Translations under genes and position numbers: made by a program
Part shown: in pieces, positions 6,478 through 33,290 of the stretch
Layout of the letters: each line of letters opens with the position of its first letter
Numbering within the stretch: position 1 is the first letter of the stretch
NCBI RefSeq assembly: GCF_000722635.1
Contig: NZ_JOKH01000001.1
Coordinates: forward strand, 568,601 to 632,600
Direction: 5' to 3'
Length of the DNA: 64,000 nucleotides
Source of the DNA: Endozoicomonas numazuensis
Lineage (GTDB): Bacteria > Pseudomonadota > Gammaproteobacteria > Pseudomonadales > Endozoicomonadaceae
The notes under the pieces: model-generated
What the model was told of the DNA's origin: nothing
The model's database searches: none
What the model saw: only the letters and a program-made list of their open reading frames with translations

Positions 6478-6495
6478 AGGTTTCTCTACTTAAGT

Positions 6496-6514
6496 AGCTA
6501 AAACAGTTTTAGCT
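6496..6514. repeat. 9-bp perfect inverted repeat at the edge of the tandem array
   Basis: AGCTAAAAC-A-GTTTTAGCT is a perfect palindrome with a 1-nt centre. Its right arm is the start of the first array copy and its left arm is an inverted partial copy of the same unit, placed 19 bp upstream of the sensor kinase start codon. Confidence 0.8.
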
Positions 6515-6644
6515 CAAACTGTTTTAGCTCAAGCTGTTTTAGCTCAAGGCTGTTTTAGCTCAAGCTGTTTTAGCTCAAGCTGTTTTAGCTCAAACTGCTT
6601 TAGCTCAAACTGCTTTAGCTCAAGGCTGTTTTAGCTCAAGGCTG
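6507..6644. repeat. Nine-copy 15/16-bp tandem array between rstA-like and rstB-like genes
   Basis: Nine head-to-tail copies of TTTTAGCTCAA(G/A)CTG-type units: 15 bp at 6507, 6522, 6553, 6568, 6583 and 6598, and 16 bp (extra G) at 6537, 6613 and 6629. The array abuts the regulator stop codon (6645-6647) and fills most of the 167-nt spacer to the kinase start. The mix of 15- and 16-bp units breaks any reading frame, so it is not coding. On the mRNA strand each unit reads about CAG-YTTGAGCTAAAA. It could modulate readthrough, mRNA stability or kinase translation, or simply be slippage-prone filler. Confidence 0.95.
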
Positions 6645-7358
6645 TTATTCACTTTTAACGAAGAGGTACCCTTTACTGCGAACAGTCTTGATTAGACGCG
6701 GATGCATGGGATCATCGCCAATCTTGGGTCGGATGCGAGACACCCGAACATCAATGGAGCGATCCTGTCCGTCATACTCAATACCACGCAGTTGAGAAAA
6801 TATTTCTTCTCTACTCAGAACCCGACCTGCATTGGAACAGAGCAACCATAGCAAATCAAACTCAGCACTGGTCAGCTCAACACTGACATCGTGCAGCCAG
6901 GCTTCTCGCATAGAGTTATCCACAACCAGTGGGCCAAAGGTCAGCCGACTGCTGCTTTCTTCTTCCTGCTCTTCCAGAGGCCCCTGATTTCTTCGCAGTA
7001 AAGCACGGATTCTGGCTAACAGAACCCTTGGGCGAACAGGTTTGGCAACGTAGTCGTCCGCTCCCATTTCCAGCCCCAACACTTCATCCAGGTCATCAGC
7101 CCTGGCGGTTAGCATCAGAATTTGTCCGCCATACTGCCCACGAACCCGGCGACAGATGGAAACACCATCCTCTCCTGGCAGCATCAGATCCAGCACCACC
7201 AGATCGGGACGCTCTTCAAGAATACGATTAACCGCTTTACCACCATCACCTTCTATAGAGACTGAGAGTCCATTGTTCTCGAGATAGTCCCGGGTGAGTG
7301 TGGCCAACCGCTCATCGTCCTCAACAATCAGGATTCGACCTGTTTCTGAATTCTCCAC
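6645..7358 (-). CDS. rstA: RstA-like OmpR-family response regulator
   Basis: A 237-residue DNA-binding response regulator. The receiver domain (about 8-120) has the acidic pocket EDD, the phospho-acceptor Asp57 (LDLMLPGEDG) and the conserved Lys in DDYVAKP. Residues about 140-237 are the winged helix with LRGIEYDGQDRSIDVRVSRIR and KTVRSKGYLF, very like RstA. The start is taken as GTG at 7358, with GGAAG seven bases upstream; an in-frame ATG at 7472 would add an odd hydrophobic N-terminus. It is first in an operon with the kinase. RstA-type regulators in enterics answer to PhoPQ and acid; the regulon here is unknown. Confidence 0.87.
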   Translation of the reverse strand: MENSETGRILIVEDDERLATLTRDYLENNGLSVSIEGDGGKAVNRILEERPDLVVLDLMLPGEDGVSICRRVRGQYGGQILMLTARADDLDEVLGLEMGADDYVAKPVRPRVLLARIRALLRRNQGPLEEQEEESSSRLTFGPLVVDNSMREAWLHDVSVELTSAEFDLLWLLCSNAGRVLSREEIFSQLRGIEYDGQDRSIDVRVSRIRPKIGDDPMHPRLIKTVRSKGYLFVKSE

Positions 7359-22952: not shown

Positions 22953-23193
22953 CGACGGCTTGAGATTTAATAAAAAAGTTATATAAAAGAAAAAATTAGA
23001 ACCTTTTAAGTTCTTTTTTTAGCAGAAATAGAAATGTAATCCTCTAAGTTTAGAATTATTCCGTCCTTATTAAAATAACTAATTCGGTATTTTGAATTTT
23101 TTATTTCTGTTAGCAATTTAAACTTGCTGACTGGCCTCTTTTCGATAAAAATCAAATATGAGAGATCCAAAAAAACGGACGAGGAAGACGCCT

Positions 23194-24597
23194 ATGGGAA
23201 ATGCCTTGGAAGCCAGGCCGATCATCTCAACACAAACTACAACCTACATACTCGACAGTAATGTTCTGATACACGACCCCAACTCGATCCTCAATTTTGA
23301 AGAGCACCAGGTGCTCATCCCCATGACCGTTCTGGAGGAACTGGACAAGCTTAAGAACGGAAAGCAAACCATTGCTGCTGACTGCCGACAGGCCATCAGA
23401 CTGATTGATCAAATACTGGGCACTGCCTCACCCGCAGAGATCGAAGCAGGCGTTCCTATCAGACGTGGTAATAAGTCAGAGCCTCAGGGTACTCTCTCAA
23501 TCCTGAGCTCTCATCACGTTGAAAATATCACCACTCTGCCCACCAGCAATAACGATAACCGTATCATTAACGATATCTGCCATTTCCAGGAAACTCATCC
23601 GGGTGCACCGGTTATCCTGGTCACCAAAGATATCAATATGCGCCTCAAAGCCAGAGGATGCGGAATTCCAACGGAGGATTACCACAGCGACCAGCTGGTT
23701 TCCGATATTGGTCTACTCAATAAAGGTTACCGACTGTTTGAAGGCAACTTCTGGGATAGAGTTTCTCAGGTTCAGACAGAACAACTGGAAGGTGTTACCT
23801 TCCATAGATTGCTGAAAGAAGAACTCGGCGATGATATCTATCTGAACCAGTTCTTTCTGGACGACACCGGGTTTGTAGCCAGAGTCAATGCTATCACTCA
23901 GGATGAAGTTCAGTTACAGCATTACTGTCGTGAATCATTAATGAGCCAGGAAGCCTGGGGTCTTCAGCCTCTTGATATCTATCAAGCCATGGCTTTGAAT
24001 CTTCTGCTGGATCCTGATATTCATCTGGTCAATCTGACCGGTGCTGCGGGTTCAGGTAAAACGATTCTCGCTCTGGCTGCAGCTATTGAGATGACGGTAG
24101 CCACCAAGCAATTCCGTCGAATCATTGCTACCCGCTCAACCCGGGGGCTGGATGAAGACATTGGTTATTTACCTGGTACGGAAGCGGAGAAAATGGAGCC
24201 TTGGCTGGGCGCCATTACCGATAACCTCGAAGCTCTGCATTGTGACGATGAATCCACCAACAGCAGTGTGGACTACATCCTCAAGCAGGTTCCCCTCCAC
24301 TTCAAATCCCTGAACTATATCCGGGGCCGAAGCTTTCAGCAGAGTCTGATCATTATTGATGAGTGTCAGAACCTGACGCCACACCAGATAAAAACAATAA
24401 TCACCCGTGCGGGTTCCGGCAGTAAGGTGATCTGTTTGGGCAACCTGGCCCAGATTGACACGCCTTACCTGGCACCCACCAGTTCAGGTCTGACTTATAT
24501 GACCGAGCGGTTCAAGAATTTCCCACACGGTGGAGCCATACAACTACAGGGAGTCCCACGCTCACCACTGGCCGCTTACGCTGAAGAAAACCTTTAA
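23194..24597 (+). CDS. PIN-PhoH fusion ATPase (PhoH2/YlaK type)
   Basis: About 467 residues. The N-terminal PIN ribonuclease domain (about 15-145) begins TYILDSNVLIHDP, with later acidic residues in NRIINDI and LVTKDINMR. The C-terminal PhoH domain (about 270-467) has Walker A GAAGSGKT and Walker B LIIIDECQN. Family members act as RNA helicase/RNase pairs. The ATG at 23194 has GAGGAAG seven bases upstream; the frame opens earlier at ATG 23158, which lacks a ribosome site. It stands alone between two hairpins. Confidence 0.92.
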   Translation: MGNALEARPIISTQTTTYILDSNVLIHDPNSILNFEEHQVLIPMTVLEELDKLKNGKQTIAADCRQAIRLIDQILGTASPAEIEAGVPIRRGNKSEPQGTLSILSSHHVENITTLPTSNNDNRIINDICHFQETHPGAPVILVTKDINMRLKARGCGIPTEDYHSDQLVSDIGLLNKGYRLFEGNFWDRVSQVQTEQLEGVTFHRLLKEELGDDIYLNQFFLDDTGFVARVNAITQDEVQLQHYCRESLMSQEAWGLQPLDIYQAMALNLLLDPDIHLVNLTGAAGSGKTILALAAAIEMTVATKQFRRIIATRSTRGLDEDIGYLPGTEAEKMEPWLGAITDNLEALHCDDESTNSSVDYILKQVPLHFKSLNYIRGRSFQQSLIIIDECQNLTPHQIKTIITRAGSGSKVICLGNLAQIDTPYLAPTSSGLTYMTERFKNFPHGGAIQLQGVPRSPLAAYAEENL

Positions 24598-24775
24598 CTT
24601 TCATTGTCCGTTGAGGGATAGCCAGACTTTTTAGTCTGGCTATCTAATGCCTATAGTAAAATAAAATACAGGCAACAGAAATTAATCATTAACTTTCCTG
24701 CGCAACACCCCCTATCCTGAGTTCTATCGACCTGCATCAACTCAGCAGGTATCTCACTGGAATACAGTAGAGTAA
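24598..24775. other. Spacer before the 129-bp element
   Basis: It holds the phoH2 terminator at 24617-24644 and otherwise nothing recognisable. Together with the 129-bp element it makes a 347-bp gene-free stretch ahead of gdhA. Confidence 0.6.
24617..24644 (+). terminator. Hairpin terminator after the PhoH-type gene
   Basis: GATAGCCAGACT-TTTT-AGTCTGGCTATC: a 12-bp perfect stem with a 4-nt loop starting 19 bp after the stop. It has only a short T tract, so termination efficiency is uncertain. Confidence 0.7.
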
Positions 24776-24904
24776 CTATACCCATTGGATTTCAAGATGC
24801 TACCAGGCGACAAGTGAGCGAAGCCCTGTGAGCCTACAAGTAGTAGGTGATCAGGGTGAGCGAACGCTGGCAACAACGTAGCATCTTGAAAGGCGATGGG
24901 TATA
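24776..24904. repeat. 129-bp palindromic element, copy 1
   Basis: Identical over 129 bp to 32109-32237. It begins CTATACCCAT and ends ATGGGTATA. The outer 27 bp are inverted repeats with three mismatches (TATACCCAT, then a 4-bp variable box, then TTTCAAGATGCTAC). The centre is a nested hairpin CCCTG-TGAG-CCTAC-AAGTA-GTAGG-TGAT-CAGGG. There is no coding potential. Its end lies 40 bp before the gdhA start codon, so it would be transcribed in, or override, the gdhA leader. It looks like a non-autonomous mobile element (MITE-like) or large REP/BIME-type repeat. Confidence 0.93.
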
Positions 24905-24944
24905 TCCGCTTCCCGGCGTTACTCAACGATAAGGAGCAGGCACC

Positions 24945-26294
24945 ATGTTTTCTAATAAACTAAATCTTGACGATTTCATGCTAGGGCTGGCCAAGCGCAA
25001 TCCACACGAACCTGAGTTCTATCAGGCAGTTTATGAGGTGGCACAGAGTGTTATTCCCTATATCAATCACCACCCGGAATATATTGATGCCCGTATCCTG
25101 GAAAGGATGACGGAGCCAGACCGAATTATCAGTTTCAGAGTTTGCTGGGAAGACGACGAAGGGCACATAAGAGTCAATCGTGGATACAGAGTTCAATTCA
25201 ACAATGCTATTGGTCCCTATAAAGGTGGACTTCGCTTTACCAGCCACCTCACTCTGGACACATTAAAATTTCTGGGCTTTGAACAAACCTTCAAAAACAG
25301 CCTGACCACTCTGCCACTGGGCGCAGCAAAAGGCGGCTCCGACTTTAACCCTAAGGGGAAAAGTGATCGGGAAGTCATGCGTTTCTGCCAGTCCTTCATG
25401 TCCGAACTACACAAACATATTGGTGTGTACACCGATATTCCCGCCGGCGACATTGGCGTCGGAGGCCGTGAAATCAGCTATTTATTTGGACAATACAAAC
25501 GGCTGGAGAATCAATTCCAGGGGGTTCTGACGGGTAAAGGGCTGGAATACGGTGGCAGTCTTATCCGCAAGGAAGCCACTGGCTTTGGCACCACCTACTT
25601 CATGGAAGAGATACTGAAAGAACATGGCAGCTCTCTGGAAGGAAAAAAGTGTGTTATTTCAGGTTCCGGTAATGTCGCGCTTTATACAGCAGAAAAAGTC
25701 ATGCAACTGGGCGGCCATGTACTCGCCATGTCTGACTCGTCTGGCACAATTCATATACCTGACGGCATCAGCCGGGAACAACTGGACTGGTTGATCGACC
25801 TGAAAGAAAACCGTCGGGGCAGAATTCAGGAATTTGCTGAACATTTTCAATGTGAGTTTTTACCAGATACAAAAGTCTGGGGCATTCCTTGTCAGATTGC
25901 CTTTGCTTGTGCGACACAAAATGAGCTGGAGAAATCCGACGCTCAACAGCTCATCAAAAATGGCTGTATCGCGGTGGCCGAAGGTGCCAACATGCCCTCC
26001 ACTCTGGAAGCCGTTCACCTCTTCAAGAAGAACAATATTTTATTTGCTCCAGCCAAAGCCGCAAATGCCGGAGGCGTTGCTGTTTCTGGTCTGGAAATGA
26101 CTCAAAACAGTATGAGGTTGTCCTGGTCGATGGAAGAACTTGAAGATCGCCTGAAAACAATCATGCAGAAAATACACAGCCAGTGCATCAAGTACGGTCG
26201 AGGTGAAGGTGAAACCATCGACTATGTTAGGGGAGCCAACATAGCCGGTTTCAAGAAAGTGGCTGATGCCATGCTGGCTTATGGGGTCGTGTAA
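24945..26294 (+). CDS. gdhA: NADP-type glutamate dehydrogenase
   Basis: Reductive amination of 2-oxoglutarate to glutamate in the cytoplasm. It has 449 residues. GPYKGGLRF and the catalytic-lysine segment GAAKGGSDFNPKGKS mark the substrate site. The Rossmann motif is SGSGNVA, and ANAGGVAVSGLEMTQNS closes the family signature. The length equals that of hexameric enteric GdhA. The ATG follows AAGGAG. The promoter must lie in or before the 129-bp element. Confidence 0.97.
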   Translation: MFSNKLNLDDFMLGLAKRNPHEPEFYQAVYEVAQSVIPYINHHPEYIDARILERMTEPDRIISFRVCWEDDEGHIRVNRGYRVQFNNAIGPYKGGLRFTSHLTLDTLKFLGFEQTFKNSLTTLPLGAAKGGSDFNPKGKSDREVMRFCQSFMSELHKHIGVYTDIPAGDIGVGGREISYLFGQYKRLENQFQGVLTGKGLEYGGSLIRKEATGFGTTYFMEEILKEHGSSLEGKKCVISGSGNVALYTAEKVMQLGGHVLAMSDSSGTIHIPDGISREQLDWLIDLKENRRGRIQEFAEHFQCEFLPDTKVWGIPCQIAFACATQNELEKSDAQQLIKNGCIAVAEGANMPSTLEAVHLFKKNNILFAPAKAANAGGVAVSGLEMTQNSMRLSWSMEELEDRLKTIMQKIHSQCIKYGRGEGETIDYVRGANIAGFKKVADAMLAYGVV

Positions 26295-28103: not shown

Positions 28104-29835
28104 CCGACATTCACCACCCCGAATTAGGAATAAATTTCTTGGTACGTTGACCCCAAGACAAGGACTATTGTCGTCATACTCTCCGAGAGACCGATTACAT
28201 GTTTCTCCGTCCCGTTGACCGTTAACACATGGACACCCGAAAAACAGAAGAAAACCCACCTGCCTGTAGGGTTCTGGGCTGGCTTTTTCTTCATGTCAGG
28301 AAACGTCCGACTTTGCCTTTTCAGCTCATGACGAATCCGGTGCTGGATAGCAGCATAGACCATCAGGCAAAGCGTCATCACCATTAATAAAGCCTCAATG
28401 CGTTCCGGCTTCTTCAGATACAAAGACGACACCAGAAAGTCCGGGCTTTTCAGAAAACGGAAGCCCCTTTCAACCTGTTGCTGAGATTTGTAAGTCCTGA
28501 GCAGTTCTGCGGTGGTCAGTCTGCCTGTATCAGTGTCGTTCGTAGCGAGAACAAAGCAACCCAGCGATGCCTCAGCATCCCGTCGGGTTTGCACAGTGAC
28601 CGAGCAACACCCTGTCACGAAGTACTCCAGATGATCCGGCTCTGCCCCGTGAGCGGGACGACCTTTGGTCTTGTAACAGGGCTTTGAAATAATCTGTGGC
28701 TCAGCCTGACAGAGTTCAGATTGCTTTTGCCACTGCTTGAAGGCTTCAAGGGCGTCCTTCTCGCACCGGAACGCTTTTTTGCCCAGTTTTTCCAGTTTCT
28801 TGCACTCTGCCAGAGATTTTTTCTGCATACGTCTTGTCAGTGTCTTCTGTTCAGTTTTCCGGCTTTGCTTGTTGCGGAATAAAACCCAGCGTTGTTCTAC
28901 GCCAGCATAATCAGACGACACCTTTATGGCTTCGTAATGCTCAAAACCTTCCACAGCCTTCATAGTGCGTGTTGGCGCACTCTGCACCAGCTCTTTGGCG
29001 GCGGCGATATTGAGGGGAACACGGGAAATGAACCACTGCCCTTGTTGATCCAGTTTTTGAAGCGTTTCTGCTACATACAACGCAGCATCAGCAACGAAGT
29101 AACGGGCTTCCAGTGCGGCCTTGAAACTCTTCAGGTGCTGGGATACGACCCACTGAAAACTCGTCTTGTCGGTCACATTGCCGCTGGCAGCGGCAATAAA
29201 CATGGGAATGCCCGCTTTGTTTTCGGTCATCAGAAGCAAAATGGCCTGGTTCAGGTCTGGCCGATGGTCACGGCTGTAGCCTTTGCAAATCCTGATGCAA
29301 TTAAGGTCTTCGTCGCTCTCCTCGCTGTCGCTATTATAACGACCATCGACGTGTAGGCTTGTACCGTCAAGGTTTAACGCCTCGCATGGCAGCTTGAGGT
29401 GCTTTGCTACCTTGATAGCCAGCTCGAAATAGACTTTACTGACATCCAGGTTGAACATCTCATCCAGTGCTCTTCCGAGCACTTTGTCGTTTAAGTGCTC
29501 AGGTTCGACTCCCTCCCTGATCAGCTTGTCGAGGGGTTTGTTGTCGAAAAACTGCGGAAACATATGGAGAGATTGCCCAACGAACCCCAAGCCATTGAGA
29601 ATCATGGCGAGAATGCACTCACCATGAGAAACCTTCCACTCGTCGGACTGCTTTGGGGCACGCTGGTCAATGTGTTCGACGATCCCAAGCTCTTTGCACA
29701 TTCCTGCGACTAAGCCGAGGTGATCCATGACCTGAGTGCGGTACTGAACAGGAGGCATAAGACGGTTTCCTGATATTTGCTTATCTGATAAATAGCAGAC
29801 TTCAGGAAAATGTCAGGTTAGGTGGTGAATGTCGG
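28104..29835 (-). mobile_element. IS1634-type insertion sequence
   Basis: A 1732-bp element bounded by 15-bp perfect terminal inverted repeats (CCGACATTCACCACC at 28104-28118 and its complement at 29821-29835). It carries one transposase gene. No target duplication is evident: the left flank ends TTCAT and the right flank begins GAACA. The left flank is not bioB while the right is, so the copy marks a rearrangement rather than a simple insertion. Confidence 0.85.
28124..29758 (-). CDS. IS1634-family DDE transposase
   Basis: 544 residues. The N-terminal DUF4277-like region (HLGLVAGMCKELGIVEHID, LNGLGF) and the DDE domain (ALNLDGTSLHVDG; FVADAALY; late E in YKSQQQVERGFRFLKSPDF) fit this family. 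It appears intact and full length, so the element may still be active. The start ATG at 29758 lies 63 bp inside the right terminal repeat. Confidence 0.9.
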   Translation of the reverse strand: MPPVQYRTQVMDHLGLVAGMCKELGIVEHIDQRAPKQSDEWKVSHGECILAMILNGLGFVGQSLHMFPQFFDNKPLDKLIREGVEPEHLNDKVLGRALDEMFNLDVSKVYFELAIKVAKHLKLPCEALNLDGTSLHVDGRYNSDSEESDEDLNCIRICKGYSRDHRPDLNQAILLLMTENKAGIPMFIAAASGNVTDKTSFQWVVSQHLKSFKAALEARYFVADAALYVAETLQKLDQQGQWFISRVPLNIAAAKELVQSAPTRTMKAVEGFEHYEAIKVSSDYAGVEQRWVLFRNKQSRKTEQKTLTRRMQKKSLAECKKLEKLGKKAFRCEKDALEAFKQWQKQSELCQAEPQIISKPCYKTKGRPAHGAEPDHLEYFVTGCCSVTVQTRRDAEASLGCFVLATNDTDTGRLTTAELLRTYKSQQQVERGFRFLKSPDFLVSSLYLKKPERIEALLMVMTLCLMVYAAIQHRIRHELKRQSRTFPDMKKKPAQNPTGRWVFFCFSGVHVLTVNGTEKHVIGLSESMTTIVLVLGSTYQEIYS

Positions 29836-29980: not shown

Positions 29981-30463
29981 GTGCAAATACTACCAATGAG
30001 GAATTACATGGATTGCTGATGGAAGAAAGTCTATTTGGGGAATGGCAGCTGTCAACTTTAAAAGCAGAATAAAGTTGACAGCTGTTGAAGTGCTTATGTA
30101 TTCCTGAACTATGGCTCTATTTCGGGGCTTTCTCAGGCTGGCTGAAGAAAAGTGAAGGATTGCAACAGAAACAGCCTTCAGACAAAGATTGATTTGAACG
30201 GATCAACCTTGCTGAAGGATCAGACATGTCTGCAACGCCCTCACTTCGCCCTATGTTCTCATTTCCTGGCTGGGTCATCGACGTTGACTGGGAGGATTCC
30301 AGCGCAATAGGTATACAAGGGCTCTGCCAGTGAGTTTCTCGATCGGTGGATTGAGATGGCCAGAATTAACCGGGGTTTTTTATAGGTTTTCTGACAGGCA
30401 CTAATTAGCGACCACGAAGATAAGTCGGTATTATCAACGCATCCATTGAAAAGGTTGCTTTTA
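29981..30463. other. Spacer between bioB remnant and phosphomannomutase gene
   Basis: It holds the BirA-like operator (30046-30084) and then about 350 bp with only short, broken reading frames, possibly decayed coding DNA. No RNA gene is recognised. Confidence 0.5.
30046..30084. promoter_or_regulatory. BirA-type biotin operator upstream of bioB remnant
   Basis: CAGCTGTCAACTTTA and its perfect complement (15 bp each, 9-nt spacer) contain TGTCAAC-N17-GTTGACA, close in sequence and spacing to the BirA operator TGTAAAC-N17/18-GTTTACA. It lies 66 bp upstream of the bioB start, where the biotin repressor would act. Confidence 0.68.
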
Positions 30464-31846
30464 ATGAAATCTTTGAACTGTTTCAAATCCTATGATGTCC
30501 GAGGTCGCATGCCGGACGAGTTGAATGAACAAGTCGCCTGGAGAATCGGACGTGCAACTGCAGAGTATTTAAAAACAGATACAGTTGTAGTGGGTGGAGA
30601 CATTCGCCTTTCATCGCCTTCTTTAAAGGCAGCACTCACACAAGGTCTTAGATCGGGTGGCGTCAATGTTCTGGATATTGGTCTGTGCGGCACTGAAGAG
30701 ATCTATTTCGCCACTTCTCATCTGAAAGTGGGCGGCGGCATTATGGTCACTGCCAGCCACAACCCCAAAGACTACAACGGGATGAAGCTGGTAAGGGAAG
30801 ACAGCAAACCGATTTCTGGCGATACCGGTTTACGTGCCATTCAAAAGTTAGCTGAGGATACTTTTATAACCGCAGACTTAGATGATACATCTCATCTGTC
30901 AGGCAATTATGAAACCATCAGTGTGCTTGATGCATACATTGAACATATCCTTGGCTATATCAAACCCACTCAGCTAAAGCCAATGAGACTGGTGGTCAAT
31001 GCAGGCAATGGCGCAGCGGGTCATGTTATAGACGCTATTGAAGCCCGGTTCCAGGCAGATTCAATACCTGTCGAATTTATCAAAATCCACCATGAACCAG
31101 ACGGTCACTTCCCCCATGGCATTCCTAATCCACTTCTCCCTGAATGTCGACAGGCAACCAGTGACGCGGTTCTGGAACACCAGGCAGACATGGGTATAGC
31201 CTGGGACGGTGATTTCGACCGCTGTTTTCTGTTTGACGAACAGGGCCAGTTTATTGAGGGCTATTACATTGTCGGCCTGCTGGGTGAAGCCTTCTTGAGT
31301 CATACGCCCGGTGCCAAAATTATCCATGACCCCCGACTCACCTGGAATACCATCGACCAGGTTCAGAGTGCGGGAGGTGAGCCAGTACTGTGCAAAACCG
31401 GTCACGCTTTTATAAAAGAAAGAATGCGTAACGAAGATGCGGTTTATGGGGGAGAAATGAGTGCTCACCATTACTTCCGGGACTTTGCTTACTGTGACTC
31501 TGGCATGATTCCCTGGCTGCTGGTTGCAGAACTATTGTCTCAAAAGAACCAGACGCTCTCCTCGATGGTAGCCGAACGGATTGAGAAATTCCCTTCCTCA
31601 GGGGAAATAAACAGCAAGCTGGAAAACCCTGCGAAAGCAATCGAAGCCATTCTGGCAATCTATGAAAAGAATGCAGTCGAGATTGATCGCACCGACGGTA
31701 TCTCCGTTGATATGGGAGACTGGCGTTTTAACCTCAGAATGTCCAATACCGAACCCGTGATCAGACTGAATGTAGAAAGTCGGGGTGATAAGCCACTAAT
31801 GGAAGAAAAAACCACTGAACTTCTGGCACTGATACGTTCTCAGTAA
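30464..31846 (+). CDS. manB: Phosphomannomutase (CpsG/ManB type)
   Basis: Interconverts mannose-6-P and mannose-1-P for GDP-mannose and surface polysaccharides. It has 460 residues. The phosphoserine is Ser98 in [15 protein letters not shown], the metal loop is [11 protein letters not shown], and the sugar loop is [27 protein letters not shown] binds phosphate. Similarity to enteric CpsG runs end to end. The ATG at 30464 has AGG nine bases upstream; TTG 30446 is less likely. No other capsule genes are adjacent. Confidence 0.94.
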
Positions 31847-32516
31847 TCTTTGGCGAACAGGATTCAGGCAGACTCTGCGAGCCGTCCTGGAATGGCAAAA
31901 TCTGACACCTTGGCTACATTCCTTGATACATCAAGATTTCTGGAATCAAGCGAATGAAACCTCTTCAAAGTTTCAACGCTGTGTGGCTGCGCTCTGCCTG
32001 GCCACCTCACTGCCTATGATGGCAGCGCCAGCCGCGGAGTCACCTAAAAAATCCATGCCTGAATCGGTATCTGGGCTCTGGAAAAATATCCGAGGCTCGG
32101 TTTTAGAGCTATACCCATTGGATTTCAAGATGCTACCAGGCGACAAGTGAGCGAAGCCCTGTGAGCCTACAAGTAGTAGGTGATCAGGGTGAGCGAACGC
32201 TGGCAACAACGTAGCATCTTGAAAGGCGATGGGTATAACCCCATAAGCTTGCGGTCAGTATGTGACTGGAAGAGTAAACCAGACAACAACATAACCTCTT
32301 TATAACCTCTTTAAAGACGATGGCTATCAGGCCAATAGCGAGAATACACTACAAAAGCCCCGCGCCCTCTACTACTATGTGTTCCATAGTGCTAAGCCGT
32401 ATTTTCAAAGCCACTTCGGCCTGAAACCCAGAAAGTGCGGCCAGGAGCCTGTCCGACAAGCTCCCAGACTGGATAACACAGCTTATAAACCGGAATTCGA
32501 AAGGAAGGAAACTCAT
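31847..32516. other. Disrupted region between manB and yaaA
   Basis: A short frame from about 31923 or ATG 31955 to 32150 encodes a possible signal peptide (CVAALCLATSLPMMAAPAAES) but runs into the 129-bp element and stops there. Downstream of the element, 32310-32516 is open in frame with yaaA and looks protein-like ([22 protein letters not shown]). This may be a small exported-protein gene broken by the element. A short tandem repeat (TAACCTCTT) occurs at about 32292-32312. Confidence 0.4.
32109..32237. repeat. 129-bp palindromic element, copy 2
   Basis: Identical, same orientation, to 24776-24904. It interrupts a short exported-protein-like frame and lies 279 bp upstream of yaaA. The flanks of the two copies are unrelated beyond the TATA-like ends, which places the borders precisely and suggests insertion at TA (inference). 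Confidence 0.93.
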
Positions 32517-33290
32517 ATGCTTTTTGTCGTGTCACCTGCCAAGACTCTGGACTATGACACCGCTCCGGTGACCAAAAAGTTCAGTCAACCTGAATTCCTG
32601 GATCAGTCTCAGGATCTGATCGATCAATTGCGTCAACTCAATCCTGCTGATATTGGCAGTCTGATGAGTATTAGCGACAAACTGGCACAGCTCAACGCAG
32701 CCCGCTATGAAGCCTGGCAGCAGCCTTTTACTCAGGACAATGCCAAACAAGCGGTTCTGGCTTTTAAAGGCGATGTTTATACGGGACTTGATGCTGAAAC
32801 AATGAATGCCAAGCAGTTTGATTACGCTCAGAATCACCTGCGTATTCTCTCAGGGCTCTACGGGTTACTTAAACCTCTCGACCTGATGCAGGCTTACCGT
32901 CTGGAAATGGGCACAAAGTTTGCCAATAACGCAGGCAAAGACCTTTACACTTTCTGGGGTGATCAGATCACTGAAAAGTTGAATGAAGAAATGGCTGCCC
33001 AGAAAGACAACATTCTGGTTAATCTGGCGTCTAATGAATATTTTAAGGCCGTTAAACCCAAGTTTGTAAAAGGACAGATTATCACTCCGGTATTCAAAGA
33101 CTGGAAAGGTGATAAATACAAGATCATCAGCTTTTACGCCAAAAAAGCCAGAGGCCTGATGTGTCGTTATGCGATTGATAATAATCTGAAAAAAGTCGAT
33201 GACCTGAAAGGTTTTGATTACGAGGGCTACAGCTATAACGAATCGATGTCCAACGACAAGGAATGGGTGTTTATTCGTAAAGAAGCCTGA
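32517..33290 (+). CDS. yaaA: YaaA/UPF0246 peroxide-stress protein
   Basis: A 257-residue cytoplasmic protein. [17 protein letters not shown] opens the family; [34 protein letters not shown] and [11 protein letters not shown] follow. Enteric YaaA lowers free iron and protects DNA during H2O2 stress, and structural work shows a DNA-binding fold. The ATG at 32517 follows GGAAGGAA; the frame opens earlier but without homology. Confidence 0.95.

Follow-up and report, generated by a model that had tools for sequence, protein, structure and literature searches.

The element and its place in the window

The analysed DNA is a 64-kb stretch (the window) with a G+C content of 47.5%, in which one palindromic element is present twice in the same orientation. 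Copy 1 (24777..24904, + strand), a 124-bp element with TA on each side, occupies the leader of gdhA (24945..26294, + strand). This gene is assigned by NF006929 (724.9 bits, cutoff 536) to NADP-specific glutamate dehydrogenase, as the earlier note had it, and its ATG follows the end of the element after 40 bases. Upstream of copy 1 lies a PhoH-like gene (23158..24597, + strand), whose score stays under the curated cutoffs (195.5 bits, with 680 required for PhoH2). Copy 2 (32110..32237, + strand) has on one side a phosphomannomutase-type gene (30446-31846), which scores 765.2 bits against a cutoff of 801, and on the other yaaA (about 32517-33290), with 428.5 bits against a cutoff of 368. Between the two copies the reverse strand carries an ORF of 544 aa (28124-29758), which we take to resemble an IS4/IS1634-type transposase. 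Elsewhere in the window (6480-6655), about ten units of 15-16 bp around TTTTAGCTCAA form a tandem repeat.

With a 129-base query both copies match at 100% in the DNA search, and the repeat comparison within the window gives a 132-nt pair at 99%, with a start-to-start distance of 7333. Both copies described in the earlier note are therefore real; the length of 129 bp given there is reduced to 128 bp, as C24776 is a flanking base shared by chance. The element is an imperfect palindrome of the form TATA...TATA, and its TA-like ends read TATACCC...GGGTATA. The left terminal inverted repeat TATACCCATTGGATTTCAAGATGCTAC (24777..24803, + strand) and the right one TATACCCATCGCCTTTCAAGATGCTAC (24878..24904, read on the - strand) agree at 24 of 27 bases. 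Allowing up to 3 mismatches, the 24-bp end is present in each copy on either strand, and in none of 100 shuffles. The central hairpin (24824..24856, + strand), also recognised earlier, corresponds to helices 5 and 6 of the consensus structure. The predicted RNA fold of the element has an energy of -64.5 kcal/mol, compared with -32.67 (sd 3.24) for 200 shuffles (z -9.82). At gathering scores, Rfam gives no match in the window.

The element is an ERIC (IRU/RU-1), a miniature inverted-repeat transposable element (MITE). The family is well known from enteric bacteria and has long served as a tool for fingerprinting bacteria; it went unrecognised in the earlier note. Local alignment to two intergenic loci of E. 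coli and one of Salmonella, which are unannotated in their records and which we take to be ERICs, gives scores of 101, 97 and 103, respectively (shuffled maxima 37, 35 and 29), and covers positions 15-128 of the element in both E. coli loci and 1-125 in the Salmonella locus. At E 1e-5, 2376 of 5426 E. coli genomes match; query cover is 64% in five matches listed, and no match listed reaches 80%.

Alignment of 18 elements requires few gaps, and 96% of the pair cells are standard pairs. Changes on both sides are observed at 18 of the 38 pairs of a consensus structure derived from this very alignment, against a shuffled mean of 7.7 (none of 500 shuffles is as high, and slid structures reach at most 5). 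For further pair types, one of five measures, the value of 33 is attained by 14 of 500 shuffles. The hairpin is maintained via compensatory changes, which selection on RNA and selection for symmetry of the transposon ends would explain equally well.

Copies in the genome and the insertion ahead of gdhA

The host genome assembly (6.34 Mb, 31 contigs) contains the element at no fewer than 78 distinct places (from 82 loci retrieved), 61 of them with both ends. The best-piece identity is at least 97% at 51 places, 90-97% at 10, 80-90% at 10, and below 80% at 7. These counts are lower bounds, and one more place, on contig C23, lies outside the 78. The DNA search of the genome returned 94 first-look candidates, of which the 40 scored are all at least 97% identical, and the genome contains 116 matches to the end pattern TATACCCATNNNNTTTCAAG, versus 0 to the reversed control. 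A covariance model based on 18 elements detects additional and diverged copies (150 of 1195 candidates scored, a single palindrome often being matched on both strands). Plasmid records contain no ERIC match at E 1e-5, and phage records only one, lying on a Salmonella genome contig.

Every one of the 59 places with an alignment over all 128 bases has its own 12-bp flanks on either side. Exactly 128 bp is the length of 41 copies; 7 of these, the gdhA copy included, are identical to their consensus, and 37 are at most 4 changes away from it. The recent spread proposed by the earlier note is thus borne out by many near-identical copies with unrelated flanks, by the consensus sequence of the gdhA copy, and by an empty site in a relative (G006, see below). 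Segmental duplication or gene conversion, suggested by the 100% identity of two copies 7.3 kb apart, is practically excluded: instead of only two copies with flanking homology the genome holds many with distinct flanks, which already rule out a segmental duplication, the exact sequence is found in 7 of them, and with so many places at 97% or above in unrelated surroundings gene conversion is unnecessary.

None of the 78 places is called inside an ORF, by crude calls (at least 100 codons) which an ORF broken by ERIC would escape. The places lie between tandem genes (45), divergent genes (18) and convergent genes (14), with 1 at a contig edge; between tandem genes the element points along the direction of the genes in 30 cases and against it in 15 (p 0.036, on the same crude ORF calls).

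Several variants were observed among the copies. Of the 41 complete 128-bp copies, 21 have C at position 28 of the element (window 24804) and the other 20 have T, which may reflect two co-amplified subfamilies. Length variants are present in L041:2189-2391, L044:1825-1992, L035:1719-1866, L043:1968-2053 and L050:1515-1600; in L041 the central CCTGTGAGCCTACAA unit is tandemly expanded to six units, and two of the variants are 86-bp forms without the central hairpin. Another miniature element, 160 bp long and with the ends GAGGCTGACCGAGA, is nested inside ERIC copies of this genome at two different positions (L032:1976-2266, L056:2018-2312 and L039:1829-2133), a MITE within a MITE. In two of these copies (L032, L056) CTAG borders it at either end, and in L039 at one end.

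In respect to the gdhA site, the relative G006 (same genus, flanks 87% identical) has a phoH-gdhA interval without the element, in which the two flanking matches adjoin; in the window the element sits 3' of a block conserved with G006. The empty site has one base fewer exactly at TA, and for this reason the TA duplication is unreadable here. The gdhA copy is recent, since it equals the consensus of the 41 copies and is absent from the leader of a genome of the same genus. An attempt to date it via the gdhA genes of other genera yielded no DNA match in four of five genomes, the fifth being G008 of the same genus, at 75%. For copy 2 the surrounding matches in G006 give no clean empty site.

The earlier note supposed that the element can supply a promoter, a structured 5' UTR or a terminator to gdhA. 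Simple consensus scans found no promoter-like and no terminator-like site in 24590-24980, and likewise none at copy 2, which speaks against the first and the last of these; for a structured 5' UTR to be plausible, transcription must begin upstream of the element. In the predicted leader the element folds independently, and the ribosome site is unpaired at 0.32 with the element and at 0.33 without it. The gdhA transcript would carry a hairpin that folds by itself and would hardly affect the translation start, and a mild influence on mRNA processing, perhaps also on stability, is possible. According to the relevant parts of PMC10969869 and PMC2229807, ERIC in Yersinia exerts orientation-dependent RNase E effects on upstream transcripts.

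These effects, and a position so close ahead of the start of a gene central to nitrogen metabolism, would suit a regulatory element that has been domesticated as a promoter, attenuator or processing site and is maintained by selection. This explanation is nevertheless quite unlikely: the G006 leader lacks the element between closely similar flanks, the same sequence recurs exactly in 7 genome copies and within 4 changes in most of the 41, the scans found neither a promoter nor a terminator, and the predicted pairing of the ribosome site hardly changes. A designed regulatory role at gdhA is not supported. Directly 3' of the phoH-like gene, a palindrome GATAGCCAGACTTTTTAGTCTGGCTATC (window 24617-24644) is conserved in G006; it is a possible candidate terminator, unflagged by the scan.

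ERIC in relatives and the ends of IS630

At E 1e-6, 15 of 38 genomes of the same family match ERIC; the counts per genome are of matches, some of them on both strands, with at most 91 candidates scored. In g1, the genus of the window, there are 76 matches in G000, 23 each in G008 and G001, 3 in G009, 1 in G003 and none in six genomes, and genera g7 and g6 show up to 91 per genome. The plain DNA search is positive in 9 of 38 relatives (the own genome included), all of the same family, and in none of 13 genomes of other families of the same order. The ERICs of G021 (genus g7) are up to 97% identical to those of the window, and two genes compared between the genomes are 68-74% identical. The simplest reading of these sequence comparisons is that ERIC was probably transferred between the genera recently.

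At E 1e-8 the class-wide model search is positive in 12 of 369 genomes, that of the window among them. Five loci were checked: L230, L232 and L234 are ERIC-like by sequence and L231 and L233 are unlike ERIC, so the model also captures unrelated hairpins. The element at L230:1501-1628, from a genome of another family of the same class (G371, 8 model matches), scores 58 versus 32 for shuffles, and ERIC may therefore extend further within the class.

The TA duplication that the earlier note had advised looking for is seen in the relative G024, in which an ERIC interrupts an IS630 gene (L216), while the uninterrupted L219, L223 and L225 read GGAC-TA-TACGG. In the same genome, five head-to-tail ERICs (L067:1528-2148) overlap their neighbours by the terminal TA, with start-to-start distances of 126 for full-length units and of 117 and 124 for units with deletions. 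ERIC is found at an identical TA inside IS630 transposase genes at L213:1839-1963, L216:1381-1507 and L221:1380-1507; L213 and L216 agree at both junctions, L221 at one. The parasite therefore interrupts its presumed mobiliser, and within such a gene it is probably copied together with it.

An IS630 element of G008 is present in four copies with both ends (L200, L206, L209 and L222), three of them with an open frame of 346 codons; the ORF of L200 (342 aa) matches NF033545 at E 9.8e-72. Its terminal sequences are TATACCCAAGTGAATTCAAGATGC (first, end A) and TATACCCGTGACCATTGAAGATGC (second, end B). End A agrees with the left end of the window ERIC at 20 of 24 positions and with the right end at 18, and end B agrees with one G001 ERIC at 22 of 24, the best of 60 comparisons. 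As agreement over these 60 (5 IS630 ends by 12 ERIC ends) ranges from 13 to 22, the values of 20 and 22 are picked best ones. For three ERIC queries the best of 127,196 window 24-mers reach 17, 18 and 19 by chance, and a large share of the end comparisons, with 13-19 of 24, do no better. The likeness extends about 24 bp inwards, with nothing similar seen further in. Two other DDE_3 (IS630) types of G008, considered as parents, have ends matching ERIC at 11 of 24 positions at most.

A plasmid protein search finds related transposases in 250 records, with about 60% identity among the 25 of 250 listed. Of six named plasmid copies, two from Vibrio and one from Klebsiella agree with end B at 22-23 of 24, those of Enterobacter and Citrobacter at 15 of 24 ungapped, and one record begins inside the end; the downstream ends agree with ERIC at 16-19 of 24. 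The named Vibrio, Enterobacter and Klebsiella elements share this type of end.

As to the autonomous parent envisaged by the earlier note, relatives carry a transposase-bearing element with very similar ends, and the own genome has only fragments, one of which retains an end identical to end A. At E 1e-40 the own genome gives 4 matches, all fragments, with no intact transposase of this type. The look for orphan ends there covered 100 of the 116 places; the retrieved stretches of three half-elements (L033, L036 and L054) show no second orphan end, so no larger element with ERIC ends was found among them.

The presumed mobiliser and comparison with known systems

We favour, with a probability of roughly 0.8, the reading that the element is an ERIC-family MITE moved in trans by an IS630-family transposase with very similar 24-bp ends and inserted at TA. 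ERIC has no transposase of its own, and its ends would be recognised in trans by that of an IS630 element bearing similar 24-bp ends (TATACCC...TTCAAG/TTGAAG-ATGC); the enzyme would insert ERIC at TA, which would become duplicated. The copies in the genome of the window were presumably moved by a transposase of this type.

The co-occurrence of the two partners is uneven. Counting remnants, the transposase is present in 7 of 38 family genomes at E 1e-40, and ERIC occurs in 5 of these 7 and in 10 of the 31 without it, a weak association (one-sided Fisher p 0.07). In genus g1 three genomes have at least 23 ERIC matches, and precisely these carry the transposase or remnants of it (3 of 11; p 0.006, threshold post hoc). 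G048 and G019, which bear the transposase as partial genes, show no ERIC at E 1e-6. No transposase match at E 1e-40 is found in the ERIC-rich g7 genomes G021, G039, G040, G043 and G047, and such genomes weaken the simple IS630 account. Among ten ERIC-bearing genomes searched, IS630 members are present in 8 (in G021 weakly) and absent from G009 and G040. None of 30 IS630 loci taken from ten ERIC-bearing genomes, in which many more matches exist, matches at both ends, and the only strong hit to one end is an ERIC end in G043. In the ERIC-rich g7 genomes either the mobiliser was lost, or it lies outside the sampled loci, or a different one exists.

A different transposase as the mover of ERIC, with the likeness to IS630 ends as an old relic or as convergence on TA-targeting ends, would account for these g7 genomes, for a likeness confined to 24 bp, and for the end comparisons within the chance range. 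We consider it improbable, because the best end matches exceed the best background 24-mers, the TA target is common to ERIC and IS630, and the g1 carriers coincide with the ERIC-rich g1 genomes. A broader form of trans-mobilisation by IS630 has somewhat less than an even chance: the IS630 elements with CCC ends would be a general ERIC mobiliser across Gammaproteobacteria, ERIC repeatedly hitting its gene and crossing genera with it, with bursts switched on at its arrival and off at its breakage.

In the literature covered we found no demonstration of how ERIC moves. Young near-identical copies, an empty site and, in one clade, IS630 elements with very similar ends all occur in one bacterial family, so trans-mobilisation is directly testable. 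The link between ERIC and IS630 is not new, as the relevant part of PMC6267812 already reports that MITEPlu5 of Photorhabdus, related to ERIC, resembles IS630 elements of the CCC type.

In comparison with ERIC/IRU/RU-1 (MITEEc1 and MITEYpe1 in PMC6267812), the window element is 128 instead of 127 bp long and shares the TATACCC-type ends, the TTCAAG motif, the long hairpin, the TA duplication and the intergenic placement; the core AAGTGAGCGAA and GAGCGAACGC is common to it and E. coli. Its left end differs, reading AAGATGC, whereas the E. coli and Salmonella copies read AAGTTGC and GAGTTGC. The host also differs, lying probably outside Enterobacteriaceae and Vibrionaceae, the families given in a 2024 review. 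GdhA identity among the 80 best named loci, from which close kin may be missing, peaks at 69%, versus 55-57% for the Enterobacterales among them, which suggests an order other than Enterobacterales. Genome size, the G+C content of the window and the genes present would suit Endozoicomonadaceae. In the part of the literature covered we found no earlier account of ERIC from such a host, and one may exist; if the host is as it seems, the host range is widened past that review.

MITEPlu5, as described in the relevant part of PMC6267812, is likewise ERIC-related, has hundreds of copies, a TA target and ends like those of CCC-type IS630 elements (ISPlu3, ISPlu8, ISPlu19), but is 123 bp long and has no copy equal to its own consensus, versus 7 for the window element. 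The IS630 family (NF033545) shares the very similar 24-bp end type and the TA target, and differs in its length of about 1.1 kb and its transposase gene, which ERIC lacks, with no likeness seen past the ends. Compared by description, the RUP/IS630-Spn1 pair of pneumococcus is similar: in the relevant part of PMC2229807, from 2007, RUP is a small element with a TA target, proposed to be driven by IS630, and is singled out among bacterial repeats for having a transposon match.
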